A program made the position numbers and the translations under genes. This document shows, one piece after another, positions 40,649 through 59,969 of a stretch of DNA of 64,000 nt. Location: contig CAIPMU010000011.1 of assembly GCA_903866275.1 (NCBI GenBank), positions 124,001-188,000 of the forward strand, written 5' to 3'. This DNA is from Vampirovibrio chlorellavorus. Lineage in GTDB: Bacteria > Cyanobacteriota > Vampirovibrionia > Vampirovibrionales > Vampirovibrionaceae. Position 1 is the stretch's first letter. Every line of letters starts with the position of its first letter. Under the pieces are notes generated by a model, which made no database searches, was not told where the DNA came from, and saw only the letters and a program-made list of their open reading frames with translations.

Positions 40649-40690
40649 ACTCAACTCCAAGAACTTAATGGGCTTCTACACAAAAAGAGG

Positions 40691-41194: not shown

Positions 41195-41238
41195 TTTTCC
41201 TCCAGAAATCAGTAAATAAGATGAAAGTTAGTAAACTG

Positions 41239-41613
41239 TTAAAAAGAACCTTCCAGACACTCCATGATTTTGCTCATCAGATCTTCAGATGCAAAAGGCT
41301 TCATCAGGTAATGCTTGGCACCGGCCTGAATGGCCCTGACGACATTAACCCGCTCGGCTTCAGTGGTTACCATCATGACCGGGATACCCTGAAAGCGGGC
41401 GTCTGATTTCAGATTCTGGAGGGTGGTAAAACCGTCCATCACGGGCATGTTCCAATCCAGCAGAATTAAGCCGACGTCTTGATATTCCTGACCCAAAAGT
41501 TCCAGCGCCTCTTTTCCATCACTGGCCTCCAGAAATTCCAGTCCCAAAACATCGGTACTGCCCCGAATAATTTTACGGATAATTGCTGAATCGTCGACAG
41601 ACAGCACTTTCAT
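41239..41613 (-). CDS. cheY: CheY-like response regulator (first copy in locus)
   Basis: A 124-residue single receiver domain with VDDS near the N-terminus, phospho-acceptor Asp53 in LLDWNMPVMDGF, the Thr switch in MMVTTEAERVN, and Lys in YLMKPF. AAGGAG stands before the ATG, which overlaps the cheR stop codon (ATGA), so the two are translationally coupled. It shares the general layout of the other CheY in the locus but differs in many positions. Which one binds the motor is not evident. Confidence 0.93.
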   Translation of the reverse strand: MKVLSVDDSAIIRKIIRGSTDVLGLEFLEASDGKEALELLGQEYQDVGLILLDWNMPVMDGFTTLQNLKSDARFQGIPVMMVTTEAERVNVVRAIQAGAKHYLMKPFASEDLMSKIMECLEGSF

Positions 41614-42461
41614 AATGCACTCCTTTTCAGTTGATAGTAGGAGCCGCTGTTGGCCTCCAGCCGTTCAAAATCTGTACTGTATCCAAACATAGATTCCGAA
41701 GCTCCTAAAAATAGATAACCACCCGGGTTTAATGACTGTGCTATTTTTCTGAACAGATTGATTTTGAATTCTGTTGAAAAATAGATGGCGACATTTCGCA
41801 GCATGATAATGTCAAATTTTCCGATGCTGTCAAATGAATTCATCAGATTCATTTGCTGAAATTGCACCATCTGACGAATCGATGGATCCAGCACATAAAC
41901 CCGACCATCCTGCTTAAAATAGCGATCTCGCAAGTCATCCGGCATACCCCGGGATATAGAGATGGGATCGTAGCGGCCCATTTTTGCCAGAAATAACACG
42001 GCGTTGGATAAATCCGTGGCCAAAATCGAAAGTTTCCCGTTGTCCAGCTCTTTGGCTTTGCCATTGCGAAACAATTCGTGAGCTATCATCGAAATGGAAT
42101 AAGGCTCCTGACCCGAGGAACAGGCCGCTGACCAGATACGGACCTGCCTGCGTTTGCCTTCCTGAATTTCTTGCGCCAGCTTGGGAAAGATCTGCTCTTT
42201 CAAAATGGCGTATGGGGAGGTATCCCGAAACCAAAGAGTTTCATTGGTGGTCATGGCATCGATAATTTTATTTTTCAGGCTGGCATTTTGTTGCACCAAC
42301 GTGTAAAATTGCCCGAAATTTTCGCAGCCATTTTCCAGCAACAGTTTACTAAGGCGCGTTTCAATCAGATAGGCTTTTTCATCGCCAATACTGATGCCGC
42401 ATTCTTTTTCGATAAACTGCTGAAACAGCCCAAATTCAGTGCTGGTAATGGTTAGTGACAT
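41610..42461 (-). CDS. cheR: Chemotaxis protein methyltransferase CheR
   Basis: SAM-dependent glutamate methyltransferase acting on chemoreceptors. The 283 residues have the N-terminal helical domain with MTTNETLWFRD, the SAM motif IWSAACSSGQEPYSISM, and the MLRNVAIYF motif. AAGG precedes the ATG at 42461, one base past the cheB stop. No tetratricopeptide extension. Its receptor partners in this locus lack the usual C-terminal docking pentapeptide. Confidence 0.95.
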   Translation of the reverse strand: MSLTITSTEFGLFQQFIEKECGISIGDEKAYLIETRLSKLLLENGCENFGQFYTLVQQNASLKNKIIDAMTTNETLWFRDTSPYAILKEQIFPKLAQEIQEGKRRQVRIWSAACSSGQEPYSISMIAHELFRNGKAKELDNGKLSILATDLSNAVLFLAKMGRYDPISISRGMPDDLRDRYFKQDGRVYVLDPSIRQMVQFQQMNLMNSFDSIGKFDIIMLRNVAIYFSTEFKINLFRKIAQSLNPGGYLFLGASESMFGYSTDFERLEANSGSYYQLKRSAL

Positions 42462-42462
42462 A

Positions 42463-43575
42463 TTACCTTAATCCTTTCCGAATCAGTTGGGTGACTCGTC
42501 CTGCCAGATCTTTGAGATCGATTCGTTCATCTGCAAGGTTCATTTCTTCCACGGCTCTTGGCATGCCGTATACAACACAGGTTTTTTCACTTTGTACCAA
42601 TGAGTAACAACTTTTTTGCTTGAGAACTTTCAGGCCCAAAGCACCATCACTACCCATACCCGTCATGATCAATGACAAAATGTTCTTGCCATAGACATCG
42701 GCCACAGAGCGAAACATCACATCAACGGCGGGCCGGCAACTGTTTTCCGGCGGCTGTTCATTGGTTGATATTTTTATGGTGTCCTGGTTCCGGGTGACAA
42801 CCATATGTTTGCCACCAGGGGCGATGTAGACAGTGTTTTTTTCCACAATATCGCCATCACGAGCCTCTTTAACGGTCAAGCTGGATTTCCGGTTCAGGCT
42901 GTTTGCCAGTGATTCGGTGAAAATAGGCGGCATATGCTGCACGAGCAAAATTGGAATATTTAAATCACCAGGCAGTGCTGGTATAAATTCCCCCAGCGCA
43001 TTGGGACCGCCTGTCGATACGCCAATAACCAATATATCAAACTGACTGGGCAATGCGGCCTTATTTTGAGCTGTTGCCGGTGCGGGTGGCGCGATGGGTT
43101 GACTGGCCAAAGGTTTGACGGGAGCACTATACGGTTTGCCCCTAGTCATGGCGGAGGACAGATTACGCTTGAGTTCAAAATGCTTGATCACCGAGGTTAG
43201 TTTTTTCAGAAGCTCCTCCTGACTTTCACTCAGGCTTTGCCCGTCGGGCTTGGGAATGAAATCCAGTGCCCCCATTTCCAGCGCACGAATGGTGATATCC
43301 GCACTACTCCGGTTCATGCCACTGATCATGATCACGCCGATATTGGGACGATCTCTTTTAATAACTTGCAAAGTCTCCAGACCGTCCATTTCAGGCATTT
43401 CAATATCCAGCAGGACCAAATCAACATCGAGGGTGCCTAGCTTGCTTAGGGCTAATTTCCCATTGCTGGCGGTTCCCACCACTTGAGTGTTGGGAATTCC
43501 CTCAACCACGCGCGTTAAGATGCTACGGTAGGTGACCGTATCATCCACGATTAGAATTTTAAGCGGGTTAGGCAT
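42463..43575 (-). CDS. cheB: Chemotaxis protein-glutamate methylesterase CheB
   Basis: A 370-residue response regulator esterase and deamidase. An N-terminal receiver (VDDTVTYRSIL, phospho-Asp in LVLLDIEMPEMDGLE) is joined by a linker of about 50 residues to the CheB domain. That domain holds the catalytic Ser in IGVSTGGPNALGEFIP, His in VQHMPPIFTESLA and Asp in MTGMGSDGALGL. It counteracts CheR in adaptation. It is preceded by cheW with 69 bases between, and its stop is next to the cheR start. Confidence 0.95.
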   Translation of the reverse strand: MPNPLKILIVDDTVTYRSILTRVVEGIPNTQVVGTASNGKLALSKLGTLDVDLVLLDIEMPEMDGLETLQVIKRDRPNIGVIMISGMNRSSADITIRALEMGALDFIPKPDGQSLSESQEELLKKLTSVIKHFELKRNLSSAMTRGKPYSAPVKPLASQPIAPPAPATAQNKAALPSQFDILVIGVSTGGPNALGEFIPALPGDLNIPILLVQHMPPIFTESLANSLNRKSSLTVKEARDGDIVEKNTVYIAPGGKHMVVTRNQDTIKISTNEQPPENSCRPAVDVMFRSVADVYGKNILSLIMTGMGSDGALGLKVLKQKSCYSLVQSEKTCVVYGMPRAVEEMNLADERIDLKDLAGRVTQLIRKGLR

Positions 43576-43644
43576 AAGTGAACTAGAAACCTCAACATTG
43601 CGTTGTGAATCAGATTAATTGGAATCAGACCGTTGAAAATCAGA

Positions 43645-44118
43645 TTACTTTAACAAGCGCTCTACGGAGAGAACAGCGACCAGGGCGTCATTTTGCTTGA
43701 TGACGCCAGTGAGAAACTGACCGTCTATTTTGCCCAGGTTGGCTGGAGGAGGTTCAATGGAGTCTTCCGGCACTATCACGACATCGCGAATATCATCAAC
43801 CAGTAAGCCCACTTTGTCGTTGGTGATTGTCAAATCCTCGCTATCGTGGTGTAGACCCAAACTTTGCAGTTCCTGCTCCGTTTTTAAAATAATGTTATGG
43901 GAGTGCTCGGAGAGGGTTGCTTTTTCCAGACCCAGACGACGGTTTAGATCCATAATGGTGACAATCTGCCCGCGCAGGTTCAGCAATCCGCGGATATAAT
44001 CAGCGCCGTGCGGCACCGGCGTCATTTCCAGCTGGCGGTTAATTTCACGCACCATATGGATGTCTACGCCGAACAAGTGACCGCTTAGTAAGAATGTTGC
44101 ATATGATCGGCTTGCCAT
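43645..44118 (-). CDS. cheW: Chemotaxis coupling protein CheW
   Basis: A scaffold of 157 residues joining CheA to chemoreceptors. It has the paired beta-barrel CheW fold: SYATFLLSGHLFGVDIHMVREI, PHGADYIRGLLNLRGQIVTIMDLNRRLGL, then DKVGLLVDDIRDVVIVPEDS. AAGGAG stands six bases before the ATG, which lies inside the last 34 bases of cheA, so translation is likely coupled. Insertions before DLTITNDK are short. Confidence 0.95.
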   Translation of the reverse strand: MASRSYATFLLSGHLFGVDIHMVREINRQLEMTPVPHGADYIRGLLNLRGQIVTIMDLNRRLGLEKATLSEHSHNIILKTEQELQSLGLHHDSEDLTITNDKVGLLVDDIRDVVIVPEDSIEPPPANLGKIDGQFLTGVIKQNDALVAVLSVERLLK

Positions 44119-46970
44119 TCTGCGCTCCTTTCAGATTCTACGGTAATGCCTGCGGAGTCCAGTAATCTTTCGCAATCCAGGAAGATGGTGACGTGATTGT
44201 TAATCACCGCCGATCCTTTGATGCCTGGATGATTCTGGAAATCGTTTTCCAACTGGATATTGGTATCGATGGTATCGATAATGGCCGTCGCCAGAATGCC
44301 CACATGGCCATCCCCGCAAATGGGTATAATCAGGTAGGTTTCCTTGGCTTCACTGCTGACCGAGTTTACGGGCAAGTAGTCATCCAGCACAATGATGGAG
44401 ATGCTTTTGCCGTGGTGCGGCAGGAATTGTTTGTGACCAATGCGTTCCACATCGTCCATCTCGAACTTTTCCAGACGTAAAATATCGGAAAGCGGTACGG
44501 CAAAAACTTCCGTAGGCGAGCTGTTGAAGAGGAGAATGGATTGTTTTTCGCCGCCATTGCGCTTGCTGGAAAGTACCGCAGCTTCCTGGTTCCGACGATC
44601 TTCTTCCGCGCTAATCTCCTGGAACGACAAGCCGGAAGTGGACATAATACCACCCACATCCAAAATCATGGCGACATGACCATCGCCCATAATCGTGGCG
44701 CCTGAGAAACACTTGCAGTTCTTGATGTACTGCGACATCGGCTTGACGACGATTTCTTCAATATCCTTGATCTCGTCCACGATCAGGCCGTATTCCCGAT
44801 TGACCGACTTTAAAACCAGAATGTTGTAATCACTGGCCACTTGCCGGCGTTCCTGCACCAGGTTGGGATGTTCTTCCAGCAGGCGTTCATCGTGAATGTT
44901 TTCTCTGCGGTTTAACGAGGGCTTGCCATCCTTGGAGGACGGGTTCCCCAGATCCGATTGGGTGTACCCTTCCAGGGGCTCGGCCAGCCCTAAGACTGCA
45001 CTGAGTTTAACCAGGGGAAGCAGTTTGCCGCGCAGGCGTAAAACCGGTGCTGAACCGACTTTTTCGATGCGGGTGGCAATTTGTGCGGCTTGCACACAGA
45101 CCAGTTCGACCAGGTTGATTTGAGGGACCGCAAAAATCTGTTGCGCGGCCTCAACAACCAGAGAAGGTACAATGGCCAGGGTCAGTGGCAAGCGCAGCAG
45201 AATGGTCGTGCCTTGCCCCTTTTCAGTTTCAATGGCGATACTGCCACCAATCTGCTCGATGTTGGTTCTGACCACATCCATACCCACGCCTCGACCCGAC
45301 ACATCGGTAATCTGTTCAGCAGTTGAGAAACCCGGCGCAAAGATGAGGTTGACCTGCTCTTGGACGGTCATCTGTCTCAAAGTGGCTTCGGTGATCAGCC
45401 CTTTTTCAATGGCTTTACTGGCGATGCGTTCGTGATCGATCCCCGCGCCATCATCAATGACGGCGATATTGATATGGCCACTCTCCTGGTAAGCCTTGAG
45501 TAAAACCGTTCCCAATCGAGGCTTCCCAGCTTGTTCCCGAACATCCGGGGTTTCCATCCCATGGTCGCAGCAATTGCGAATCAGGTGAGTCAGCGGATCG
45601 GAGAGACTTTCCAGAATGGATTTGTCAAGCTCGACCTCCTCGCCAGTCATCTGGAGTTCAATCTCCTTACCCAGGTGCTTGGAAAGATCCCGAATCACGC
45701 GGGGAAACTTCCCAAAAACGCTAGAAATGGGTTGCATCCGGGTATGCATGATATGTTCCTGCAAGTCGGACGTGATCAGATCCACGTTTTGAATAATACC
45801 AGCCAGGCCTGTATTCTCTGTTTCCTTCTGGTTTTCAAAAGCTCTGGTTAATTGGTTCCGGGCCAGGACCAGCTCTCCGGCCAAATCCATTAACCGATTG
45901 AGGAGATCGACCTTGACGCGAATACTTTCGTTCGACGTGTCATTTGAATTGTTGCTGGGTTTGGATGGCGCTTTGGCACTTTTTTCGGCTGGAGCTGGTG
46001 CGGCAGGCGCTGGTGCTTTCACGGCTTTGGGGGCCGCGTCAACCGGAGCCCCAGGGGCGGTGGTTGCCGATTTGGCTGCAGGTTCTTTGGGCGCTTCAGC
46101 AATAGGTGCTGGTTGAACGGTTAAGGTCGCCGGTTTAGCGTTGCCTAATACCTCATCCGGCGTGACCAGTTTAATTTCGCTTTCCGGAATGCCAAAGGCA
46201 ATGGAGAGGAGATCGGATTCCAGAACAGATCCGTAGAGAAACTTGATATTGAGGGGAGCGTCTAATGCGGTTTCCAGATTCGTGATGCTGGCTAAATCGT
46301 GACTGACATCAAGCACAGTGCCTGTGCCCAGCATTAATTCGTAAAACTGGGTCACATTCCAGTTTTGTCTGGCCAGATCGGTATCCGCGCATAAGTCAAT
46401 CGCATAAAGCTTTTGCCCACTTTTAACCGCTTTTTCGAGTGTGGCCTGATCAATAGTGAACGAACTTTTCTGGTCACTTACAGCCGTTGATGCCTTATCT
46501 ACAGGGGTTGCTTTCGCAGGTTCTGCAGTCACGGTTGCTGATGCTGTCGGCTCTGCTTCCGGAACAACCGCTGAGCTTTGTTCCCCGTTAATCAGGGCTT
46601 CCAACTGGGTCACAATATGTTGGTAGGGTACTTCTTCGCTGGCGCTAATATCGTCCAGCATCAGGCGCAGGCAGTCTACACCGATCAATAGAGGATCCAT
46701 CACCTGAGGGGTGGGGCCTAGTTGCCCATCCCGCATCAGCATCAACACGTTTTCCATGCTATGGCTGAGCGATTTTAAGGCTTCCAGACCAAAAAAGCCG
46801 GAAGCCCCCTTGATGCTGTGAATGGCCCGGAAGACCCGATTGATAATTTCTGACCCAGCCTGCTCTCCGTCCTTTTCCAGGGTTAACAGGTCTGGCTCAA
46901 TCGAGGAGAGATGCTCTCGGCTCTCGGCCACAAACTCTAGAAGAAGTGATTCATCATTTAAGCCGCTCAA
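44085..46970 (-). CDS. cheA: Chemotaxis histidine kinase CheA with two CheW-like C-terminal domains
   Basis: A 961-residue kinase. It has an N-terminal Hpt domain (phospho-His in AIHSIKGASGFFG), a P2-like region (about 170-290), a Pro/Ala-rich linker (about 290-340), and the dimerisation helices. The ATPase follows with N-box HLIRNCCDHGM, G1 DDGAGID and G2 GRGVGMDVVRTN. Two CheW-like domains close the protein, the first from about residue 600 (TLAIVPSLVVEAAQQIFAVPQINLVE), the second from about 835 (QSILLFNSSPTEVFAVPLSDIL). The TTG at 46970 is the start: AGGAG is eight bases upstream and TTGA overlaps the STAS stop. A GTG three codons earlier lies on that site. The second CheW domain is a notable extra, perhaps for array contacts. 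Confidence 0.95.
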   Translation of the reverse strand: MSGLNDESLLLEFVAESREHLSSIEPDLLTLEKDGEQAGSEIINRVFRAIHSIKGASGFFGLEALKSLSHSMENVLMLMRDGQLGPTPQVMDPLLIGVDCLRLMLDDISASEEVPYQHIVTQLEALINGEQSSAVVPEAEPTASATVTAEPAKATPVDKASTAVSDQKSSFTIDQATLEKAVKSGQKLYAIDLCADTDLARQNWNVTQFYELMLGTGTVLDVSHDLASITNLETALDAPLNIKFLYGSVLESDLLSIAFGIPESEIKLVTPDEVLGNAKPATLTVQPAPIAEAPKEPAAKSATTAPGAPVDAAPKAVKAPAPAAPAPAEKSAKAPSKPSNNSNDTSNESIRVKVDLLNRLMDLAGELVLARNQLTRAFENQKETENTGLAGIIQNVDLITSDLQEHIMHTRMQPISSVFGKFPRVIRDLSKHLGKEIELQMTGEEVELDKSILESLSDPLTHLIRNCCDHGMETPDVREQAGKPRLGTVLLKAYQESGHINIAVIDDGAGIDHERIASKAIEKGLITEATLRQMTVQEQVNLIFAPGFSTAEQITDVSGRGVGMDVVRTNIEQIGGSIAIETEKGQGTTILLRLPLTLAIVPSLVVEAAQQIFAVPQINLVELVCVQAAQIATRIEKVGSAPVLRLRGKLLPLVKLSAVLGLAEPLEGYTQSDLGNPSSKDGKPSLNRRENIHDERLLEEHPNLVQERRQVASDYNILVLKSVNREYGLIVDEIKDIEEIVVKPMSQYIKNCKCFSGATIMGDGHVAMILDVGGIMSTSGLSFQEISAEEDRRNQEAAVLSSKRNGGEKQSILLFNSSPTEVFAVPLSDILRLEKFEMDDVERIGHKQFLPHHGKSISIIVLDDYLPVNSVSSEAKETYLIIPICGDGHVGILATAIIDTIDTNIQLENDFQNHPGIKGSAVINNHVTIFLDCERLLDSAGITVESERSAEWQADHMQHSY

Positions 46971-47278
46971 GGTTGGCACTCCTGTATTTTCATCATCTGA
47001 TCTAACTTGTACAGGGTCAGGGTTTTACTCACCTGTGGGTGAGTGACTTCGATGCTTAATTGTCGTTTTTCCTGTTGACAGGTCTGATAGAGTCCCAAAA
47101 TCAGCTTGAGACCAATAGCATCAATCAGTTCAGTGCTGTTAAGGTCCAGCACAACGCTAGAAGCCGTGGTTTCCTTGAGCCCGGCCAGCATTTTGCTTTG
47201 AATCGCTTCGGAAAAAGTGCTATTCAGATTTTCTTCGGCGATCAGTTTCAGTGTGGTTGCATCTGCCAGTATTTGCAT
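46967..47278 (-). CDS. STAS-domain protein (anti-sigma-antagonist type) at the head of the che operon
   Basis: A 103-residue single STAS domain with SVVLDLNSTELIDAIGLKLILGLYQTCQ. In SpoIIAA-type antagonists the phosphorylated Ser follows the Asp of a D-S-S-G motif; here that position is Ala (D53-A54-I-G), so phosphorylation at the usual site is impossible. Its stop overlaps the cheA start (TTGA), so the product is made in step with CheA. It may modulate the kinase or bind a partner outside the locus. It is the first gene of the minus-strand operon, divergent from the globin receptor. Confidence 0.85.
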   Translation of the reverse strand: MQILADATTLKLIAEENLNSTFSEAIQSKMLAGLKETTASSVVLDLNSTELIDAIGLKLILGLYQTCQQEKRQLSIEVTHPQVSKTLTLYKLDQMMKIQECQP

Positions 47279-49539: not shown

Positions 49540-51675
49540 CTAGCTGGAATAACCATAGTTGTCCACGTAATCGCTGCTGCCAATGGTACCCACTGCTTGC
49601 ACCTGAATATCCGGGATTAATTCACTGTAAGCCATCACGGTAATGACGGGAATGTGTCGATCCAGCACCTGAAACAACGGCAAACGAATGCGCGGCGAGC
49701 AAAGAATCACGGGCACCCGGTCATAGGTTTCCTGCACCCGGCGAATGGTTTCGCCGGTCATTTCAATCAGTTCCTGCATTTGCAAGGGGTTCAGCAGGAA
49801 CATGGTGCCCAGCTCCGTGCGCTGGCAACTGTCATCCAGCATTTTCTCCCACTCATTGGAGAGCGTCACGGCATAGAGGTTCTTGTTCTTGTCGCAATGC
49901 ATCAGGCAGATCTGGCGGCCTAAGGCGGCTCGTAGGCGTTCTGAGAGAATGTCCGGCTCCTTACTGAAGCGGGCGTAATCGCTCAGGCGTTCAAAGACAA
50001 ACATAATATCTTTAATGGACACTTTTTCCCGAATGAGATTGACGAAAATTTTGCGTAAATCGTTGGGGGTCATAATGGCTGGCACCAGCTCCTGAATCAG
50101 GGACTGATCCTGCTGGCGCACCAGCTCCATGAGTTTCAGCACGTCCATCTTGGTCATCACTTCATCCACGTGCTTAATCACCACCTCACGCAGGTGCCCG
50201 ATCAAGGCGTCCGTGGCATCCACCGCGCTGCGCTGCAAAATTTCCGGGATGTCCGGGGAGGTCAGCCAGTAGGCCTCTTCCAGCCCGTAGGTGGGTTCCA
50301 TATCCGTAATCACGTTATTGGGCGGGCGCAGATTTTGGGCCTGAAAATAGTTGGCCGGAATCATATACCGATCCGGGTACACGTTGGCTGCGGCCACCGG
50401 ATTGCCCCGAATGGAGATCAGGTATTCGTTGGGGCCTAAATTGGCACTATCCATAATGCGGATGTTGGGCAGAATGAAACCCAGCTCATCGGTCATCTGG
50501 GAGCGCAGCCCGGCAATTTTACCCAGCAGTTGCCCGTTCTGATCCGGGTCGGCAATGATCAACAGATCATTGCCCACTTGCAGGCTGAGGGGATCCACGC
50601 CCAGTTTTTCGTACATGCGGTTGGGGTTAATCAGTTCCGCCATGTTATCCTTGGCCTGATCCAATTGCCCTAATTGTTGTTGCACATCGTTGGTGAGAAA
50701 CACGCTCAAGGCAATCCCCACCAGAATGATCGCAATGGGCAAAAAGGTATAAATGGGGAGCCCAGTGCCCATCAGCCCCGAAATCCCCATGACGGCCAAA
50801 AAGAAGGCGGCAAACAGCAAGCCGTAGGGTTTATTTTGTACTTGCGCAAATAAATCTTTCGCCAAGCTGCCCTCGCTGGCGGTTGAACGGCTCATCATCA
50901 AACCCGAGGCGACTGACATCAGCAGGGCGGGAATTTGTGCGGCCAGACCGTCCCCGACGGTCAGTACGGTGTAATGGGTGAGTGCTTCATCAATGGCCAT
51001 GCCGTTCATCAGCATCCCGATGGCCAGGCCGCCAATGGCGTTGATCACCGTAATAATAATCCCGGCGACCGCATCCCCTTTTACGAACTTCATGGCCCCA
51101 TCCATCGAACCAAACAGGGCCGATTCCCGTTGCAGATCTTCCCGCTTTTTAATGGCCATTTCCGGGCTAATTAAACCGGCGTTGAAATCCGCGTCGATGG
51201 TCATCTGTTTGCCGGGCATGGCGTCCAGGGCAAAACGCGCGCCGACTTCCGCAATCCGCTCCGCGCCCTTGGTAATAACCATAAACTGCACAATGGTGAT
51301 GATGATAAAGATCACCGCCCCCACAATCAAGTTACCGCCGGTCACAAATTGCCCAAAGGTATGAATAATGCTACCCGCCTCCCCTTTGGCCAGAATGGAG
51401 CGGGTGGCGGCAATACTCAGCGCCAGCCGGAGCATGGTGCCCACCAGAATGATGGAGGGAAAGGCCGCCATATCCAGCGGTTTTTGTACATAGAGGGACA
51501 TCATCAGCAGAATGACGCCCAGGGCAATGTTCATGCTGATCACAAAGTCCAGCAGCAGGGGCGGCATGGGCATCAGCATGATCACCACCAACGCCATAAT
51601 CAAGCCGCCCAACAGAATCTCTGTTAAGGGTGGAACGGCAAAACTATTGTTGGGGGGTGGCTGAGCCACGTCCAA
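49540..51675 (-). CDS. flhA: Flagellar export apparatus protein FlhA
   Basis: Large inner-membrane subunit of the flagellar type III export gate. The 711 residues start with about eight hydrophobic segments (to about 330). The FHIPEP signature region is GARFALDAMPGKQMTIDADFNAGLI. The cytoplasmic domain (about 350-700) forms the nonameric ring that receives chaperone-cargo complexes. It is the last gene of the minus-strand flagellar operon and begins just after fliH. The usual neighbours flhB, fliI and flagellin are not in the window. Confidence 0.96.
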   Translation of the reverse strand: MDVAQPPPNNSFAVPPLTEILLGGLIMALVVIMLMPMPPLLLDFVISMNIALGVILLMMSLYVQKPLDMAAFPSIILVGTMLRLALSIAATRSILAKGEAGSIIHTFGQFVTGGNLIVGAVIFIIITIVQFMVITKGAERIAEVGARFALDAMPGKQMTIDADFNAGLISPEMAIKKREDLQRESALFGSMDGAMKFVKGDAVAGIIITVINAIGGLAIGMLMNGMAIDEALTHYTVLTVGDGLAAQIPALLMSVASGLMMSRSTASEGSLAKDLFAQVQNKPYGLLFAAFFLAVMGISGLMGTGLPIYTFLPIAIILVGIALSVFLTNDVQQQLGQLDQAKDNMAELINPNRMYEKLGVDPLSLQVGNDLLIIADPDQNGQLLGKIAGLRSQMTDELGFILPNIRIMDSANLGPNEYLISIRGNPVAAANVYPDRYMIPANYFQAQNLRPPNNVITDMEPTYGLEEAYWLTSPDIPEILQRSAVDATDALIGHLREVVIKHVDEVMTKMDVLKLMELVRQQDQSLIQELVPAIMTPNDLRKIFVNLIREKVSIKDIMFVFERLSDYARFSKEPDILSERLRAALGRQICLMHCDKNKNLYAVTLSNEWEKMLDDSCQRTELGTMFLLNPLQMQELIEMTGETIRRVQETYDRVPVILCSPRIRLPLFQVLDRHIPVITVMAYSELIPDIQVQAVGTIGSSDYVDNYGYSS

Positions 51676-51685
51676 AAGCCTCCGG

Positions 51686-52399
51686 TTACGGGGTGTAACT
51701 GCCCAATAGCTGGCGTAAAATGCCTAACTGGGTAGAAAACGAGGCGTCTATCAGGCCGCTGTTGGTTTCCAGAATACAGCTGCCCTCATCCACACCGGGA
51801 TCATCCATCACGATGATTTCCGCATGCAGGTTGGGGATTGGATCATCCTTGAGCATTTTTTTCACCGTCCCCGAATCGTCGGGGTGCAGTTTGAGCAGGA
51901 TGCTTTTGGTGTTGCGTCCGGCTTTCTGAATGGTGTCTTTTACCAAATTGAGCACGAGTGTTTCATCGCAACTGACTTCGGTTTTGATGATGCGGGCAGC
52001 CACTTCCACGGCCAGTCCGCCAATTTCATCGGCCAGCGATAGCAAGGCTTCCTCGCGCCCGTTGAGCAGTTGATTGATGTTGCCGCGCAAGTCCTCAATG
52101 GCGGTGCGGGCCTGGGTCAGCCCTTCGTCAAACCCTTGGGCCTGTGCGTTTTCCCGAATAGCGTTGGCCTCTTCATAAGCCTTGCTGATCAGGTTTTTAT
52201 CTTCAATCCGCCGGTAACCCCGGCGGCGATCGTTTCGGGTGTCGGCACTGCGCCGCTCGGGTGCCTCCCCGGATTCAACCGTTTCTTCGTTCCATGACAA
52301 CGGATCCGCTTCGGCCAGCCCTGCATCCAATCCATCCGCGCTAAAGCCGTCCCCGGCTGGGGGCAGGTGATGTCCGGCGAGTTTTTTCTTGATGATCAT
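51686..52399 (-). CDS. fliH: Flagellar assembly protein FliH (ATPase stator)
   Basis: A 237-residue protein of the FliH/SctL/V-ATPase subunit E family, which tethers and regulates the export ATPase FliI. An N-terminal low-complexity tail is followed by a long helix (about 65-120, SKAYEEANAIRENAQAQGFDEG...). The globular C-terminal domain has LKLHPDDSGTVKKML and GSCILETNSGLIDASFSTQL, the conserved end of the family. It lies ten bases before flhA. No fliI follows it here, so the ATPase gene must be elsewhere. Confidence 0.85.
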   Translation of the reverse strand: MIIKKKLAGHHLPPAGDGFSADGLDAGLAEADPLSWNEETVESGEAPERRSADTRNDRRRGYRRIEDKNLISKAYEEANAIRENAQAQGFDEGLTQARTAIEDLRGNINQLLNGREEALLSLADEIGGLAVEVAARIIKTEVSCDETLVLNLVKDTIQKAGRNTKSILLKLHPDDSGTVKKMLKDDPIPNLHAEIIVMDDPGVDEGSCILETNSGLIDASFSTQLGILRQLLGSYTP

Positions 52400-52455: not shown

Positions 52456-53508
52456 TTAACTGGCATTCAGGCGTCTGATCAGGTGTTGATACAAAATGCT
52501 TTCAATGCGAGGGGGCAGCGTTACACTGGAATCAGTCGCCCCTTCGTCAGGCGAGTAGGATTGCCCGGAGAGACGCCTGTAATGGGCCTCCAGATAGCGT
52601 TGAACCAATGGACGCTCATCTTTTACCCATGATAGCAGCTTTTCAGGCGGATTACTTTCCACCAGTGCCAGAATGCCTTTATAGGCTTCCGTTTTGGCGG
52701 CTGGGCTGTTCTTTTTAAGCGTGGCCTTCAGTTTTTTCAGGTGAGCTTCCACGCTGGCCAAATCCAGATTGTCGCTGACATGCTGAGGGTAGCTATAATA
52801 GGTGACCAGTTCTTTCTCCGATTCAGTAAAACGGGACAGAATCCGGCTGCGCTGAGGCGCTGGCAGGGTACCCAGCAATAAGGCCACGGCGGCGTATTTA
52901 TCGTGAGCCGATGGGCCTTTGGGCTGAACTGGATTCCCGGAAGTGGACGCTAAAGGTTCTGCTCCGTAGGCGGGCGATAGGGGCATTGATTGCGTAATGG
53001 CGAGCGAGTCTGCGTGGACAATTGGGCCGTTGATCTCCTCGTATTCGGTAATCAGTTCGATGAGCTTGCCTTCGGCGGCCTTTTGAATAATGTCAATCTG
53101 CTGGGCCATTGTGAACTGAAACTCGGGGGTATGCTCTTGCCCGTAAGTTGCGGCCACCAGCTGTTTGGCCTGCTCATAAATGTGCAGGGCCAAATTCTGA
53201 ATCATCTCCTGTTTGATGCTGCCGCCAATGCCCATGCTGGCAAATTTGGCCAGTGCATCATAGAGGCCTTCGCAGAAGAGGGTGAGCCCCTGGGCCACCA
53301 TATCGGCATCGAGGGGGATGGGCTGATTGGGGTCTGGGCCTTCCAGTCCCGGCTCCTGAATAAGCTGGCCAGCGGCAATTTCAGTGAATTCAGACAGTAC
53401 CCGGCTGTCATGTTCATACTCTTCCGGGATGAGACCTAGAATATCCAGGCGGGCCAGCAGCGATTGCCGGGTTTGTTCAATTAAGCTGTTTAAATCCATC
53501 TCAGGCAT
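52456..53508 (-). CDS. Highly divergent FliG-like flagellar switch protein
   Basis: A 350-residue protein occupying the fliG slot between fliF and fliH. The first about 190 residues are helical and unlike FliG. Residues 204-262 (KYAAVALLLGTLPAPQRSRI... and on) resemble the FliG N-domain that binds FliF, and 275-311 (YKGILALVESNPPEKLLSW... and on) resemble the FliG middle domain, with the usual EHPQ motif replaced by DERP. A normal torque-generating C-domain, with its conserved charged residues, is not visible; the protein ends soon after. It may be a truncated or rearranged FliG. Start ATG at 53508. Family assignment is inference from position and partial resemblance. Confidence 0.5.
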   Translation of the reverse strand: MPEMDLNSLIEQTRQSLLARLDILGLIPEEYEHDSRVLSEFTEIAAGQLIQEPGLEGPDPNQPIPLDADMVAQGLTLFCEGLYDALAKFASMGIGGSIKQEMIQNLALHIYEQAKQLVAATYGQEHTPEFQFTMAQQIDIIQKAAEGKLIELITEYEEINGPIVHADSLAITQSMPLSPAYGAEPLASTSGNPVQPKGPSAHDKYAAVALLLGTLPAPQRSRILSRFTESEKELVTYYSYPQHVSDNLDLASVEAHLKKLKATLKKNSPAAKTEAYKGILALVESNPPEKLLSWVKDERPLVQRYLEAHYRRLSGQSYSPDEGATDSSVTLPPRIESILYQHLIRRLNAS

Positions 53509-53557
53509 GGGCCTAGTCCTCGTTAATTATGGCGTCGATGTGGACCTTTTTTCGCTT

Positions 53558-54076
53558 TTATCGCTTCCAGTTCATGAACCAGGGCATTTGGGCGGACACT
53601 GGGCCTCCCAGTTCTTCTTGCAGCAGGTTATCAGCGGTTTGTTTCATGATGAGTTGCAAATCTTTTTCGCTGTTGAACCCGGAAGCCAATTGGGGGTTGG
53701 GACGATGCAAAAGGCCCACCAACAGTTTGGCTAAATTAAACAGTTTCCAGGCCAGCCGCTCGGTGTGCTCTCGGCGCACAGGCCAGTCCAGACCAGTATC
53801 GCGTAATTTTTTCGTAATTTGATTGATGCCGCGCAAGAAGAGTTCAATAATCTGGTGGGCGTGTTGGGCCTCAATCACAAAGGGCTCGGAGCTTTGGGGA
53901 AGTGCAATGTCCCGGTGGTCACAGAGCTCCTGCGCCGCAATTCGTGTGAAGGTGAAAATGATGGTGCGCGTTTCAGTCACTTCCGTTTCCGCCACCCCCA
54001 TGCCGCTCAATCGATCGCAGATGCGAGAGGCCCATTCGTTGGCCAAATCTTCGGCTTGAAAAAAAGGTTCGCTCAT
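53558..54076 (-). CDS. Hypothetical protein in flagellar operon
   Basis: A 172-residue helical protein, not recognised. It shows FQAEDLANEWASRICDRLSGMG, an internal helix with KLLVGLLHRPNPQLASG, and a C-terminal tail MPWFMNWKR. No signal peptide or membrane segment. It lies between fliF and the FliG-like gene on the same strand, with gaps of about 50-80 bases, so it is probably co-expressed and may be a partner of the MS-ring/switch complex. The ATG at 54076 is preferred because GGAAG lies five bases upstream; earlier GTG (54088) and ATG (54079) starts also fit. Confidence 0.6.
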   Translation of the reverse strand: MSEPFFQAEDLANEWASRICDRLSGMGVAETEVTETRTIIFTFTRIAAQELCDHRDIALPQSSEPFVIEAQHAHQIIELFLRGINQITKKLRDTGLDWPVRREHTERLAWKLFNLAKLLVGLLHRPNPQLASGFNSEKDLQLIMKQTADNLLQEELGGPVSAQMPWFMNWKR

Positions 54077-54156
54077 CATCTCTTCCACTGGGGGGTTGGT
54101 TTAGGTTTAGCTTGTACAGAGTAAGGAAGCCGTCAGTGCCTTCCCACAGACTTCGT

Positions 54157-55845
54157 TTAGGAGGATTCTATCCAGCTCTGGATCTGAAGATCCAAGTTAT
54201 CATCTTCCAAATCTTCATCGCTGACCACGTCCCGCAATTCGGCCAGGGTTTGCTGTAAGCCGTTGCTACCCATGCCCAGATTGGTGGCCATGGGGGTCGG
54301 TTGAGGCGTTGCTGCGGAGACCAGGGCCTGGGTTTGTTCCAGTTGACGCTGCTGGGCTTCCAGTAACATTTGGGTCTGTTGCTGGGTGGCCCTCAGTTGT
54401 GCCTGCTGCTGACTGGAAAGTTCGCGCAGATGCTGTAACTCCTGCTGGGTTTGCAGAAAGCTTTCATCCACCAGGCTTTTACCGCCACCCCGTTGCAGAC
54501 TCAGCAGGATAATCATCACCACGCAAAAGGCGATGGCACCACCGGCCCAATACAACCAGGTGAAATCCGTTGGGCTGTCGGCAGGGCTGGCCGAGTGCGA
54601 GCTGTTGATTGGCGTACTTTGTTGCATCACGCTGTGGGCGATACTGACGTTATCGGGTTGTACCTGTGGACTGGCTGCACGGGCAATCAGGGTTTTTAAA
54701 TCGCCAATGCTGAGATCAGCGGGCATATGCTGGGAATCGATGGTCACCGCGATGGAGATGTCTTCAATCATGCCCACGGGACGGGTTTCCACCCACTGGG
54801 TCTTGGAGTTGTTATAGCTGACTTCCACGCCGTTGCGCAGGTAATCCTTGCCACTGCCACCGCTCATGCTGGCCGTGGTATTGGCCATGCTGTTGGGCAA
54901 CAAGCTGCTGGCGGGGCCTCCAGAACCCGCGCCACCGCGAGCGTTCAGGTTTTCGTTGAAGGCCTGTTTGCTGCTGACCACGCCGCCTCGGGGGTTATAC
55001 TCCTGACTCATGGTTTCCTTGGACGCTTGCCGAACCTGCGTGCTGACCGTGACCACATAATTACCGGCACCCACCAATCGATCCAGTTGGGCGGCCACTT
55101 TTTGCTTCATGTAATTATCCTGATCTTCCAGCTTGTCCTCGATATCGCTGCCGGCATCCAGCACGCTGTTGTAGGTGTTGCCATTGGTATCCGAAATCGC
55201 CACATGGTTGGATTCCAGCCCTTGCAGACTGCCCACGATCAGGTTGGTGATGGCGCGCACTTTGTCCCGACTAAGTCGCGTGCCGACCGGTAGGGAGACC
55301 TGCACACTAGCGGACAGTGGTTTCTCTTCGCTCTTGAACAAAGTTTGCTCTGGGATGGCAATGTTCACCGAGGCATCTTCAATGGGATCAATCTTTTTAA
55401 TCAGGCGGGTCAATTCGCCTTGCTGAGAACGAATCAGTTTGATGCGTTTCTCCTCGCGGGAGGCGGTTAAGTCGCCCTTATCAAAGGATTCCAGTCCGAC
55501 GTTTTTATCCATCAACCCGGATTGCACCAGTGTAATCAACGCTTTATCGCGGTCTTTTTGCCTGGCGGTTGATTCAAACTTCAGGGTGATTTTATCGCCC
55601 ACGCTGTCTTGCAATAGATGCAGCCCTTGTCGGGCCAGAAGCGCCTGAATTTCAATGGCTTTGCCCTGGTTGGTGACCAGCGCCAGGCTCATCTGATCTT
55701 TGTCCAGTGCTTTATCTTCTTCGCTGGTTTTCCCCCCGCCCTGCATTACAAAAAACAGCACCACGCCAATAAGCACCAGCAACGCACCGGCGGCGCCAGC
55801 CAGCATTCGTCTGTCTTGCATCAAGGCTTGGAGTTGTGGGGGCAT
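54157..55845 (-). CDS. fliF: Flagellar MS-ring protein FliF
   Basis: Builds the MS ring in the inner membrane. The 562 residues have a first membrane helix (about 15-34, AGAAGALLVLIGVVLFFVM), a periplasmic region with ring-building motifs (ASVNIAIPEQTLF, ASVQVSLPVGTRL, VVTVSTQVR), and a second membrane helix (about 430-452). The cytoplasmic tail is Gln-rich and coiled-coil-like, and its last about 30 residues (LQQTLAELRDVVSDEDLEDD... SWIESS) are the expected FliG-binding segment. That segment ends right at the stop. The next genes in the operon are an unknown protein and the divergent FliG-like gene. Confidence 0.93.
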   Translation of the reverse strand: MPPQLQALMQDRRMLAGAAGALLVLIGVVLFFVMQGGGKTSEEDKALDKDQMSLALVTNQGKAIEIQALLARQGLHLLQDSVGDKITLKFESTARQKDRDKALITLVQSGLMDKNVGLESFDKGDLTASREEKRIKLIRSQQGELTRLIKKIDPIEDASVNIAIPEQTLFKSEEKPLSASVQVSLPVGTRLSRDKVRAITNLIVGSLQGLESNHVAISDTNGNTYNSVLDAGSDIEDKLEDQDNYMKQKVAAQLDRLVGAGNYVVTVSTQVRQASKETMSQEYNPRGGVVSSKQAFNENLNARGGAGSGGPASSLLPNSMANTTASMSGGSGKDYLRNGVEVSYNNSKTQWVETRPVGMIEDISIAVTIDSQHMPADLSIGDLKTLIARAASPQVQPDNVSIAHSVMQQSTPINSSHSASPADSPTDFTWLYWAGGAIAFCVVMIILLSLQRGGGKSLVDESFLQTQQELQHLRELSSQQQAQLRATQQQTQMLLEAQQRQLEQTQALVSAATPQPTPMATNLGMGSNGLQQTLAELRDVVSDEDLEDDNLDLQIQSWIESS

Positions 55846-56089: not shown

Positions 56090-56437
56090 TTAAATCTGAA
56101 TTTGCAGAATTTTATCGTAAGCTTGCACGACTTTGGTGGCCACCTGTGTGGTGATGCTGACCATCAGTTCCGCCTTGGCGTTGGCGATCATGAGATCATG
56201 CACATCCACGTTGCCAGTGGTCATGGCATCGTGCATCAGGGCATCCGGGGCGCTCACGGTGTCGTTCAGGCTTTGCACCGTATGAGACAGCACGTTCTGA
56301 AAGTTGGGCTTTTCCGTGCCGTCCATGCCTTGCACATCCAGGCTGGGTTGGAGCTGGCGCACCTGGCCGGTCATTTGGGTCTGGAACGGATTTTTGACCC
56401 CTTGCAGGGAGAGTTTGGGAATGGCTGGGAATTGCAT
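56090..56437 (-). CDS. fliE: Flagellar hook-basal body protein FliE
   Basis: Small export-gate and MS-ring-to-rod junction protein. The product, about 115 residues, ends with the conserved helix-turn-helix: VSAPDALMHDAMTTGNVDVHDLMIANAKAE followed by MVSITTQVATKVVQAYDKILQIQ. The ATG at 56437 is used, with GGAG ten bases upstream; an upstream TTG (56458) gives seven extra residues. It lies between the transglycosylase gene and fliF, the usual early basal-body neighbourhood. Confidence 0.93.
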   Translation of the reverse strand: MQFPAIPKLSLQGVKNPFQTQMTGQVRQLQPSLDVQGMDGTEKPNFQNVLSHTVQSLNDTVSAPDALMHDAMTTGNVDVHDLMIANAKAELMVSITTQVATKVVQAYDKILQIQI

Positions 56438-56515
56438 TGCGGTGTTACTCCATGACAATCGGAAAATAGTGAAAATAGGTGTGTCGGGCCTTGGGCCAGA
56501 CCGTCGGTAATCGGG

Positions 56516-57187
56516 TTAGGCTGGGTTGTTCTGCTTGCTTTGCAGATAATTCGTGAGGATGGTGCGCACGTAGTGCTGGGTTTCCTGATACGGTGGAATT
56601 CCCTTGTACTTGGCCACCGCACCGGGCCCGGCATTATAAGCGGCCAATGCCAGCGGGATATTGCCGTTGAATTGGGTAAGCAAGCCTTTCATATAGCGAA
56701 TGCCGCCATCCAGATTCTGGGCCGGATCTTGTGGGTTAGTGACGCCCAATTGCTGAGCGGTGCCGGGCATCAGTTGCATTAATCCCATTGCGCCGGATTT
56801 GGAGACAGCAGCGGGATTGAACCCGGATTCCTGCTGAATGATGGCGTTGATCAGGCTTTTATCCACGCCGTACCGGCTGCTGAGGTTTTCCACCAGCGGT
56901 TGGGCTATTTCAAATTGGGGCGAAACACCGTCGCTCGCAGAGGCGGCATTGCCGGATGCAGTCGGTGCAGCATTCAGGTAAAACTGAAACGGCTTGGGCC
57001 CGCTGGTTTCAGCGTTGCCTAAAGGATTCACAGGCAGAGTGCCGGTGTTTGCATTTAATGGGCCCGCATTCAGCGCAGCAGCTTTGCGGGCCTCCATGCT
57101 TTGCATCAGGGTTTCAATCTGTTGCACCCGGCTCTCAATGGCCTCCAGGCCACCGCCGCTCATATTGTTTGAAATACTGCCGATCAT
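56516..57187 (-). CDS. Lytic transglycosylase (SLT domain) in the flagellar operon
   Basis: Peptidoglycan-cleaving enzyme, likely used to open the wall for the rod. The 223-residue protein has an N-terminal about 100-residue region with no signal peptide, then the SLT domain. The catalytic Glu is in [34 protein letters not shown] and [21 protein letters not shown] complete the lysozyme-like fold. AAGGA precedes the ATG at 57187. No signal peptide suggests export through the flagellar apparatus itself, as known for FlgJ-type muramidases. It sits between flgC and fliE. Confidence 0.88.
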
Positions 57188-57272: not shown

Positions 57273-57716
57273 TTAACCGCGACCAATTTCAAGCGCCTTG
57301 TTGGCCATGTTTTTCACAATGCCCACCACCGCCAGGTTGGCTTCATACAACCGGGACGTGGACATGGCGTCGGCCATATCACTCATGGGGTTCACGTTGG
57401 AGAGCGTGATATAACCATCTTTATCCGCTTGCGGATGGCCGGGTTCGTAGATGCGCTTGCCGGGCGTGGGATCCTGCAACACGCCGGACATCATGGCCCC
57501 GCTGGCGCTGTAGGACAATCCTGCCTGAATCACCCCTTGCCGCATACTGGTGATAATGTCCTGGAAATTGGTCTGGGTATTTTCCACCAGAATGGGCACT
57601 TTCCGGACGTAATAGGGCGTGTTGGTGTTGGCAATGTTGTTGGCATATACCTTCAGGCGCTCGGCCTGGGCGGTCAGCCCGGCAGAGGAGATTTCAAAAG
57701 AGTTGGAAAGGGTCAT
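57273..57716 (-). CDS. flgC: Flagellar basal-body rod protein FlgC
   Basis: Proximal rod protein. The 147 residues have the N-terminal rod motif NSFEISSAGLTAQAERLKVYANNIANTNTP and a C-terminal helix (MSTSRLYEANLAVVGIVKNMANKALEIGRG). The middle region matches FlgC (YEPGHPQADKDGYITLSNVNPM). AAGGA precedes the ATG. It lies after flgB in the minus-strand operon. Confidence 0.95.
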   Translation of the reverse strand: MTLSNSFEISSAGLTAQAERLKVYANNIANTNTPYYVRKVPILVENTQTNFQDIITSMRQGVIQAGLSYSASGAMMSGVLQDPTPGKRIYEPGHPQADKDGYITLSNVNPMSDMADAMSTSRLYEANLAVVGIVKNMANKALEIGRG

Positions 57717-57782: not shown

Positions 57783-58154
57783 TTATCTGCCAACTTGGCT
57801 GGCGGCTTTAATATTGGTCACAATGCTGGAGGCCCGGCGGCTGACCATGCTGTAAAACAGCATGTTTTTTTGCAGATCAATTAACTCTTTTTGCAGATCG
57901 ACCGACACGCCGCTATCAGTGCTCATGTTGCTGAGCTGGCTGCCCATCTTGTGGGAGAGACGGGTTTCAAAGGGGCTGCTCCCCTGCAACAGATCGGCAA
58001 AGCTGACGGACTTGGCGGTATAGCCGGGGGTTTGCGCATTGGCGATGTTGGCGCTGGTCAGATTCTGGCGCTGCGCAATGGCGGACATATAGTTCAGGGT
58101 TAAATCCAGCGATTCGTGTGGTGAAATTTCCATCGGGGTCAATGCTCCATTCAT
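57783..58154 (-). CDS. flgB: Flagellar basal-body rod protein FlgB
   Basis: Proximal rod protein of 123 residues, with the family motif SLDLTLNYMSAIAQRQNLTSANIANAQTPGYTA near the N-terminus and a C-terminal helix (DLQKELIDLQKNMLFYSMVSRRASSIVTNIK). Two ATGs are possible (58154 and 58133); neither has an ideal ribosome binding site, so the first seven residues are uncertain. It lies between flgG and flgC. Confidence 0.9.
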   Translation of the reverse strand: MNGALTPMEISPHESLDLTLNYMSAIAQRQNLTSANIANAQTPGYTAKSVSFADLLQGSSPFETRLSHKMGSQLSNMSTDSGVSVDLQKELIDLQKNMLFYSMVSRRASSIVTNIKAASQVGR

Positions 58155-58193: not shown

Positions 58194-58898
58194 TTACTGT
58201 TTCAGGTTGATGGCCTTGCTATAAAGGTCATCCGTAAATTTCAGGATACGCATGTTGGAGATGAGTCCGGCGTTCAGGCGGAGGACTTGCTCCACCTGGG
58301 CGTAGACATTCACGTTGGCACGTTCCAGAAAGCTCTGTTTAATCTGGCTGTTGGTATCCAGCATGGGCGTGCCAGATTCCTTGGAGGCCAGCAATTTGTT
58401 GTCGCCAATGCTGGTCAGTTTTTCAGGGTTGGCAAAGCGCACCAGATCAATTTTGCCAATGGGTTTGAAATCGGCAGCATCGGGCGTTTGAGCCAGCACG
58501 GTGCCGTCTTTTTTGATCTGAATCTGTTGATAGTTGGCGGGAATGGAGATGCCTTCACCCACCACATCCCCCCGGTTGGTGATGAGCATGCCCTTGCTGT
58601 TCAGGGTCATGCTACCATCGCGGGTGTAAGCGGTGGTGCCATCCGGCTGGGTCACGGGGATATAGCCAAAGCCATCCACCGCAATATCCATCGGGTTTTT
58701 GGTATTCATCAGGTCACCCTTGCTCATATCGATACGGACCGCACCGTTTAAGGTGCCTGCGGGGGTGATGAACTGCTCGAAGCGTCTGGCTTTGTAGCCA
58801 CTGGTATTGTAGTTGGCCACGTTCATGGAGATATTTTCCAGGGACTCGAACTGTTTGTTGGCGTTGGCGGTGGCAATACGCATAATGTAATCGAGCAT
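58194..58898 (-). CDS. flgG: Flagellar distal rod protein, FlgG-like
   Basis: A rod protein of 234 residues with N-terminal ISMNVANYNTSGYKARRFEQ, the DIAVDGFGYIPVTQPDGTTAYTRDGSM beta domain typical of FlgF/FlgG, and a C-terminal helix (VYAQVEQVLRLNAGLISNMRILKFTD). FlgG is usually about 260 residues, so this one is slightly short. AGGAG stands seven bases before the ATG. It is the second gene of the flagellar operon; the neighbouring FlgF-like gene is a paralogue. Confidence 0.88.
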   Translation of the reverse strand: MLDYIMRIATANANKQFESLENISMNVANYNTSGYKARRFEQFITPAGTLNGAVRIDMSKGDLMNTKNPMDIAVDGFGYIPVTQPDGTTAYTRDGSMTLNSKGMLITNRGDVVGEGISIPANYQQIQIKKDGTVLAQTPDAADFKPIGKIDLVRFANPEKLTSIGDNKLLASKESGTPMLDTNSQIKQSFLERANVNVYAQVEQVLRLNAGLISNMRILKFTDDLYSKAINLKQ

Positions 58899-58984: not shown

Positions 58985-59686
58985 TTACTGAGCTCGGCCC
59001 AGTTCCTGAATCATTCGGGAGAGCGAATCGTTTTGCAAAATGAACATCTGGCGGTTGGCCTCAAATTCCCGTCGCACGGGCATGAGGGCCATGTACTCCT
59101 GTTGCAGCATCACGTTGGAATCTTCCACGTAACCCTGCTTGACATCGACTTTGTTGGCCACGCTGCCGGTTTCGTTGGCCACGCCAAAACGCCCCATCGA
59201 GACCACTTTGCCAGTGCGCTCGTTGTAAACGTTAATATCGCCGTTGGGGCTGATTTTAACGGATTTCTCCAGATCCTGCGGAATGATGGAAAAATGAATG
59301 GGTGTGCCATCCGCGCCCAGAATTTGCAAGTTATCCAGTGAGCGCAAGTCGCCGTTTTTATCCAGCTGAAACCGGCCATCCCGGCTCAGTTCGATGGTGC
59401 CTTTGGCGTTCAGGCGCTGAAAGTAGCCCTTGCTGGCCAGCGCCACATCCAATGGATTCCCGGAGCGGCGCAAGCGGCCAATCTCTGTGTTGGTGGCCTG
59501 ATCCACCGCGTTCGGGCCTAAAAATTCCACAAACGAGGTGACTACCGGCTCCTTGCGCTGATAACCTGGGACGGCGTAATTGGCGATGTTGTTGGTATGC
59601 ACGTTCAACACACTCATTTGCGTTTGCATGGCCTTGATCGAAATCGTTAGGCCATCGTTGGCGTAAGCGTATCCTTTCAGTTCCAT
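58985..59686 (-). CDS. flgF: Flagellar rod protein, FlgF-like
   Basis: First gene of the flagellar operon. The 233-residue protein has the rod N-terminal helix (SIKAMQTQMSVLNVHTNNIANYAVPGYQ) and the FlgF/FlgG beta domain (GNPLDVALASKGYFQRLNAKGTIELSRDGRF). A closing helix carries the late-rod motif NVMLQQEYMALMPVRREFEANRQMF. The ATG at 59686 follows AGGAAGG by six bases; a start at 59824 would add 46 unrelated residues. A sigma-28-like element lies just upstream. FlgF versus FlgG is judged by order and length. Confidence 0.85.
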   Translation of the reverse strand: MELKGYAYANDGLTISIKAMQTQMSVLNVHTNNIANYAVPGYQRKEPVVTSFVEFLGPNAVDQATNTEIGRLRRSGNPLDVALASKGYFQRLNAKGTIELSRDGRFQLDKNGDLRSLDNLQILGADGTPIHFSIIPQDLEKSVKISPNGDINVYNERTGKVVSMGRFGVANETGSVANKVDVKQGYVEDSNVMLQQEYMALMPVRREFEANRQMFILQNDSLSRMIQELGRAQ

Positions 59687-59699
59687 CGGCAACCTTCCT

Positions 59700-59726
59700 G
59701 TATCGGCTTGGACTTGCGGGCTTTTC
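59700..59726 (-). promoter_or_regulatory. Sigma-28-like promoter candidate upstream of the flagellar operon
   Basis: On the minus strand GAAA, 15 bases, then GCCGATAC: close to the FliA consensus TAAA-N15-GCCGATAA. It would put the start inside the ribosome binding site of flgF, which argues against it or means a very short leader. Confidence 0.3.
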
Positions 59727-59969
59727 CGCTTGCCCTGTGAGTAACTTTGAGGTGAGAGAGGGGATGGTTTTAAGACTTTACGGCTCACTCCTGGAGAGTG
59801 TGCGCCGTTTTTTGGGTTTTGCAATCGGTCTTCAATCCGGGGCCAGACTGATCGGGTTTCGGGGATCAGAGACCGACTCTCCGGGTATCGACAGGCCCCG
59901 GAGACAATTCAATGATTCCGAAGAGATCTCCATCAAACAACGGAGCCGCTGAAAAGCCTTGGCATGACA

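Follow-up and report, generated by a model that had tools for sequence, protein, structure and literature searches.

What occupies the place of FliG in a flagellar-type gene cluster in which the interval between fliF and fliH holds two genes of unfamiliar sequence, and what kind of machine could be built around their products? The question is raised by the window (the whole 64,000-nucleotide stretch of Vampirovibrio chlorellavorus DNA analysed here), in which the minus strand carries, in order, two flgF/flgG-like genes, flgB, flgC, SLT, fliE, fliF, Y, X, fliH and flhA. The first-pass annotation had described an unknown 172-residue protein and a 350-residue, partly FliG-like protein between fliF and fliH, and both genes are indeed there: X (350 residues) at 52456-53508 and Y at 53558-54088, the latter coding for 176 residues from a GTG start, or 172 if counted from an internal Met. 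On the upstream side lies the MS-ring protein FliF2 (54157-55845; Pfam YscJ_FliF, E 1.3e-32; YscJ_FliF_C, E 2.1e-15), and on the downstream side the ATPase regulator/stalk protein FliH2 (51686-52399; Pfam FliH, E 3.7e-21) followed by the export-gate protein FlhA2 (49540-51675; Pfam FHIPEP, 702 bits). The rod proteins FliE, FlgB, FlgC and FlgF/G are all recovered by profile searches: the rod adaptor FliE2 (56090-56458; Pfam FliE, E 7.3e-17), the proximal rod proteins FlgC2 (57273-57716; TIGR01395, above cut-off, E 3.1e-32) and FlgB2 (57783-58154; TIGR01396, above cut-off, E 4.2e-16), and two FlgF/FlgG-like rod proteins, a (58194-58898; PF22692, E 1.1e-19) and b (58985-59824; PF22692, E 3.1e-8; true start probably within the open reading frame), both above cut-off for TIGR03506. 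Between fliE and flgC, a 223-residue SLT lytic transglycosylase is encoded at 56516-57187, assigned from its sequence and from a position shared with relatives. Contamination was rejected as a source of the cluster, which sits on a 491 kb contig and was found again in relatives. A chemotaxis cluster (40283-47278; two CheY-like proteins, CheX-like, CheR, CheB, CheW, CheA and a STAS-like protein) directly adjoins these genes.

A search of the remainder of the genome (3.0 Mb in 20 contigs) for other copies of FliG, FliM and FliN located all three, in a separate canonical set. An ordinary FliG of 342 residues is encoded on contig C18 (E 3.8e-41), within the canonical order flgB-flgC-fliF-fliG-fliH-fliI, and clusters motA-motB-fliL-fliM-fliN and fliP-fliR-flhB-flhA belonging to the same set lie elsewhere in the genome. 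FlhA, FliF, FliH, FliP and FliR are each present in two copies, one of the FlhA copies being that of the window. Since a normal FliG is accompanied elsewhere by its own FliF, FliH, FliI, FliM/N, MotA/B and FlhA, the cluster in the window is part of a second system of flagellar type. We refer to the canonical flagellum (contigs C18, C16 and C7) as system A, and to the window cluster together with a cluster on C10 (a two-SpoA-domain protein, fliO, fliP, fliQ and fliR) and one on C14 (fliJ-fliK-short flgE) as system B. The export components found for system B are FlhA, FliP, FliQ, FliR, FliH, FliI and FliJ, of which FliI is known from relatives, where its gene adjoins flhA2, and no system B copy of it was located in the window's genome. 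When the genome's FlhB was used as query to look for a counterpart close to the X clusters, the only match lay beside FlhA1; an FlhB2 could lie elsewhere, and the FliK C-domain, the usual FlhB partner, is present in system B. Considering the evidence below as a whole, we think it likely that system B is a type III apparatus, non-rotary and derived from a flagellum, with X as the link between the FliF ring and the C-ring.

The case for such a role begins with the relationship of X to FliG. In a predicted model (pLDDT 77), X consists of a helical-bundle N-domain (residues 1-165; 53014-53508), a variable linker and a C-domain (residues 198-350; 52459-52917), and its profile aligns over the full length. 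Drawn more narrowly, the two domains span residues 3-163 and 199-349. Searched alone, neither X nor Y has a significant match in Pfam or NCBIfam, so that Y, in particular, remains the partner outside the profile libraries that it had been taken to be. No BLASTP match was obtained between X and the genome's own FliG, the X profile gave chance matches only against PDB sequences, and a Foldseek search with the full-length model returned no significant match, with FliG absent among the top 50 and nothing known matching the N-domain. The C-domain was therefore modelled separately, using 136 residues from a relative's X orthologue (pLDDT 74.5, pTM 0.43). In a Foldseek search of this model against the PDB (350,542 chains), FliG accounts for 18 of the 32 matches, including all of the top five, and the FliG matches span both FliG_N structures (5TDY, 5WUJ) and FliG_M structures (3SOH, 4FQ0, 4FHR). 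No match is significant singly (best E 0.59); by a rough binomial estimate the enrichment exceeds chance expectation, a statement that is qualitative only because the FliG chains in the PDB are mutually related. Weak Pfam matches to MgtE_N, FliG_M and FliG_N (E about 0.01-0.03) occur among X relatives. The portion of X most frequently matched in relatives is residues 204-311 (approximately), the same stretch initially noted as FliG-like, and in its fold it does resemble FliG. A comparison by hhalign with five related FliG proteins is colinear but weak (E 0.09-0.13, with a shallow FliG profile), and places the E-R-P of X on E-N-P-Q of FliG (E 0.13). The EHPQ motif had been reported as lost; it is not intact in X, but it has been changed to E-R-P rather than simply being absent, and E298 and R299 are invariant in 52 X proteins.

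Across X proteins the C-domain comprises just 136-153 residues, which leaves no space for a torque domain, and a search of the window's genome for FliG_C (PF01706) has its sole match in the separate FliG on C18 and none in X, in agreement with the initial description. Set against FliG, then, X lacks FliG_C, gives no significant sequence-profile match, carries an extra N-terminal domain and has E-R-P in place of E-H-P-Q, while its C-terminal half resembles the FliG_N/M armadillo fold and its gene sits between fliF and fliH. From the predicted structures we conclude, with moderate-to-high confidence, that X is a truncated FliG relative lacking the torque domain; the presence of a normal FliG elsewhere in the genome, which could have counted against the early reading of X, thus does not come together with a lack of kinship between X and FliG.

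A further indication comes from the presumptive binding partner. In flagella, FliG_N co-folds with the C-terminal tail of FliF (PMC6079021), and the corresponding tail of FliF2 (residues 533-562; 54160-54249), which from its residue conservation is the expected docking peptide for X, retains the FliG-binding segment recognized at the outset: among 62 FliF2 proteins, W558 and I559 are invariant and E560 is conserved in 97%. The W-I pair is kept even though many of these species have no FliG, and the simplest partner for the FliF2 tail would be the X C-domain. One might instead suppose that X is an unrelated helical adaptor that has come to occupy the fliG position and acts like the injectisome SctK, a reading consistent with a similarity between X and FliG that is below significance at the sequence level and with an N-domain that resembles nothing known. 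Because it leaves unaccounted for the prevalence of FliG, in both its N and M domains, among the fold matches, the weak FliG_N, FliG_M and MgtE_N profile matches in relatives, the alignment of E-R-P on E-N-P-Q and the retention of the FliF tail, we regard this explanation as unlikely, although it is the strongest of the competitors to a FliG-derived adaptor.

To what extent system B depends on system A can be judged from relatives in which the two do not occur together. Among 292 genomes searched across the phylum, X relatives were found only in the window's family and in one other, the Gastranaerophilaceae, from which we sampled 50 genomes, 96-99% complete and representing 18 genera. X is present in all 50, as is FlhA2 (most copies 712-731 bits), and FlhA1 (817-881 bits) is present in 26, which are exactly the genomes that have FliG_C. 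Flagellin occurs in the same 26 FliG-bearing genomes and in one other, and is absent from 23 of the 24 FliG-less genomes; MotB (MotB_plug) scores above cut-off in none of the 24, compared with 7 of 7 FliG-bearing genomes tested. All 24 FliG-less genomes encode a single protein with two SpoA domains and lack a FliM/FliN pair. This protein matches SctQ (TIGR02551) over approximately 150 residues that cover both SpoA domains, with E values of 1e-12 to 1e-16, below the curated cut-off, and those examined match SctQ and FliN, as well as FliM weakly by way of the SpoA domain. Other parts of system B persist: three or more FlgE/F/G-type proteins are kept in 23 of the 24 FliG-less genomes, fliJ and fliK lie beside a short flgE in FliG-less genomes just as they do in that of the window, and conservation extends to the SpoA-fliO-P-Q-R cluster. 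The absences come from profile searches of draft genomes, and are backed by their agreement over 24 genomes and by positive controls. Two genomes depart from the pattern: G168 has one flagellin-type gene (C1:201268-201672) in the absence of FliG, FlhA1 and MotB, and G200, which is FliG-less and has X and FlhA2, retains just one FlgE/F/G-type protein.

These distributions bear directly on the proposal that system B is a second true flagellum, to which the canonical set lends FliG, stators and flagellin while X acts as an accessory. The window's genome by itself would permit such an arrangement, as it contains FliG, two MotB genes and seven flagellin-type genes, and chemotaxis genes adjoin the cluster. 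The 24 relatives that maintain the X system with no FliG_C or MotB (and, in 23 cases, no flagellin) from which to borrow, along with the placement of X in the fliG position and the retained FliF2 tail, render it quite improbable. The same genomes could alternatively be viewed as carrying a flagellum decaying after the loss of motility, which was the reading of earlier genome papers, in which the sets were called incomplete (PMC4040986, PMC3787301), and which the small genomes of the gut relatives might seem to favor. A decaying system would not, however, be expected to show the conservation that we observe. Besides the presence of X in every genome sampled, the order fliF2-X-fliH2-flhA2 recurs in all of the 61 larger loci that were inspected, if breaks at contig ends are allowed for, so that the aberrant switch region first noticed in the window is no chance arrangement. 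FlhA2 is approximately 80% identical between genera, and dN/dS between pairs of FliG-less genomes is 0.04-0.15 for X and 0.16 for fliH2 (approximate values, as dS is high in some pairs); judged from these coding sequences, X is under purifying selection in the FliG-less genomes. Given, in addition, the 26 genomes in which the X system and a canonical set coexist, we consider decay very unlikely.

The neighboring protein Y proves to be related to X itself. Y aligns with the N-terminal half of X at 26% identity over 148 residues (BLASTP, E 5e-12) and is also matched by the X profile; on this basis Y is a stand-alone paralogue of the X N-domain, and was rejected as a candidate for the missing torque domain. 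A rearranged rotor drawing its torque domain from Y or from elsewhere, which the first-pass annotation had offered in view of the truncated X and the adjacent Y, is thus given almost no credence, being contradicted by the homology of Y to the X N-domain, by the location of the genome's sole FliG_C in a complete canonical FliG, and by the 24 relatives just described. The N-domain behaves as a mobile module of which Y is one copy, with other copies in relatives standing alone with membrane helices. In two genera, g11 and g16, fusion proteins join it to the linker and cytosolic domain of FlhA, where it takes the place of most of the membrane part (L173 5222-7306, L174 5864-7588, L175 5633-7411); these fusions may represent an alternative substrate receptor.

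To place system B among known type III systems, we compared FlhA2 with its flagellar and injectisome homologs. FlhA2 scores below the equivalog cut-offs of both FlhA (670 bits, cut-off 772) and SctV (576 bits, cut-off 692), and in an unrooted tree, which included few outgroups and four SctV sequences, the FlhA2 proteins of both families form one long-branch group (100/100) apart from FlhA1 (100/100) and SctV (100/100). Because the FlhA2 proteins of the two families fall together, systems B and A would have parted before those families split. System B shares with the canonical flagellum FliF, FliH, FliI, FliJ, FlhA, FliO/P/Q/R, FliE, FlgB, FlgC, FlgF/G, an FlgE-type protein and FliK, as well as the order fliF-(fliG place)-fliH; in contrast to it, the stand-alone X system lacks the FliG torque domain, FliM plus FliN, MotA/B and flagellin, and its FlhA2 forms a separate clade. 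Injectisomes (NF-T3SS; PMC3459982) resemble system B in having neither a torque-generating FliG nor a stator, and in the single SctQ-like two-SpoA-domain protein, but system B retains the flagellum-specific FliE, FlgB, FlgC, FlgF/G and FlgE-like proteins, its FlhA2 falls outside the four SctV sampled, and X has no known injectisome counterpart. The secretin-less NF-T3SS of Myxococcales (PMC3459982) is likewise flagellum-derived, without FliG and MotAB, and was formerly taken for a relic; it has also lost FlgB, FlgC, FlgE and FliE, whereas system B keeps these four. The basal bodies of Buchnera (PMC8109811) combine a basal body and export machinery with the absence of flagellin and Mot proteins, and have been proposed to be a secretion device; the isolated complexes contain FliG, in contrast to system B with X in place of fliG, and system B predates the split of the two families.

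In light of these comparisons, we propose that system B is a second export machine of flagellar type, one that does not rotate, and that X is its adaptor between FliF and the C-ring. The C-domain of X, a FliG_N/FliG_M-like armadillo module, would dock on the C-terminal tail of FliF2, as the conservation of that tail suggests, and X would thereby join the MS ring to a C-ring made of one SctQ-like two-SpoA-domain protein in place of FliM and FliN; the torque domain is gone, and a stator would be unnecessary. The X N-domain, together with Y in the window's lineage, may face the export platform, an orientation suggested by relatives in which this module is fused to the cytosolic domain of FlhA. 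Subunits would be exported by FlhA2, FliPQR, FliH, FliI and FliJ through a rod of FlgB/C/F/G and a short hook of FlgE-like protein, with hook length set by the FliK homologue. A rod, a short hook, FliK and an export gate without stator or filament point to secretion or presentation rather than rotation, and gut relatives without swimming genes keep the machine intact, so that it is probably a secretion device and not a propeller, its likely task being the secretion of proteins or their presentation at the cell surface instead of swimming. A small protein with a signal peptide (118-127 residues) is encoded between fliQ2 and fliR2 (L216 10793-11149, L217 6492-6860, L218 10131-10499, L219 6308-6691), with a weak T2SS-T3SS_pil_N match in two species, and may be a component of system B located in the periplasm or outer membrane.

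The transition from flagellum to secretion machine is a long-standing question for which the Myxococcales systems have been the main known intermediate, and system B may represent an earlier step, as it still has rod genes missing from those systems and lacks precisely the parts needed for rotation. More tentatively, and with rather less than even confidence, we suggest that it represents a third class of type III system, distinct from both flagella and injectisomes: an independent and old flagellar exaptation in the Melainabacteria in which the rod and a short hook were kept, FliG was reduced to an adaptor for docking that gained a new domain, and a single SctQ-like protein stands in for FliM/FliN. 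Its cargo would be effectors or surface proteins, secreted in gut symbionts and perhaps also in algal predators. Many Melainabacteria have a partial flagellar gene set, which has been read as motility loss or incomplete flagella (PMC3787301, PMC4040986); MEL.A1 was reported to be without L and P rings (PMC3787301), and a functional flagellar gene set was reported for Vampirovibrio by Soo et al. (PMC4451040). Our search of the open-access literature found no type III system described in Gastranaerophilales or Vampirovibrio, nor any paper that treats system B as distinct. We reinterpret what were called "incomplete flagella" in gut Melainabacteria as a conserved machine, which every one of the 50 Gastranaerophilaceae genomes examined was found to carry. 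Abby and Rocha (PMC3459982) take the presence of FliE, FlgB and FlgC to indicate a flagellum; on that criterion system B is classed as a flagellum in spite of the loss of its motility parts, and automated classifiers that call flagella in this way would miss it.

Two additional sets of genes were noted in the course of this work. Separate proteins of approximately 490 residues that contain only a homologue of the FlhA cytosolic domain (L181 6224-7702, L182 5755-7212, L184 5794-7299) are widespread in the Gastranaerophilaceae according to the FlhA search of the 50 genomes, and are adjoined in two loci by BamA-like and OmpH-like genes. In the window itself, two tandem open reading frames of exactly 773 residues each, possibly duplicated genes, lie on the minus strand at 33274-35595 and 35876-38197.
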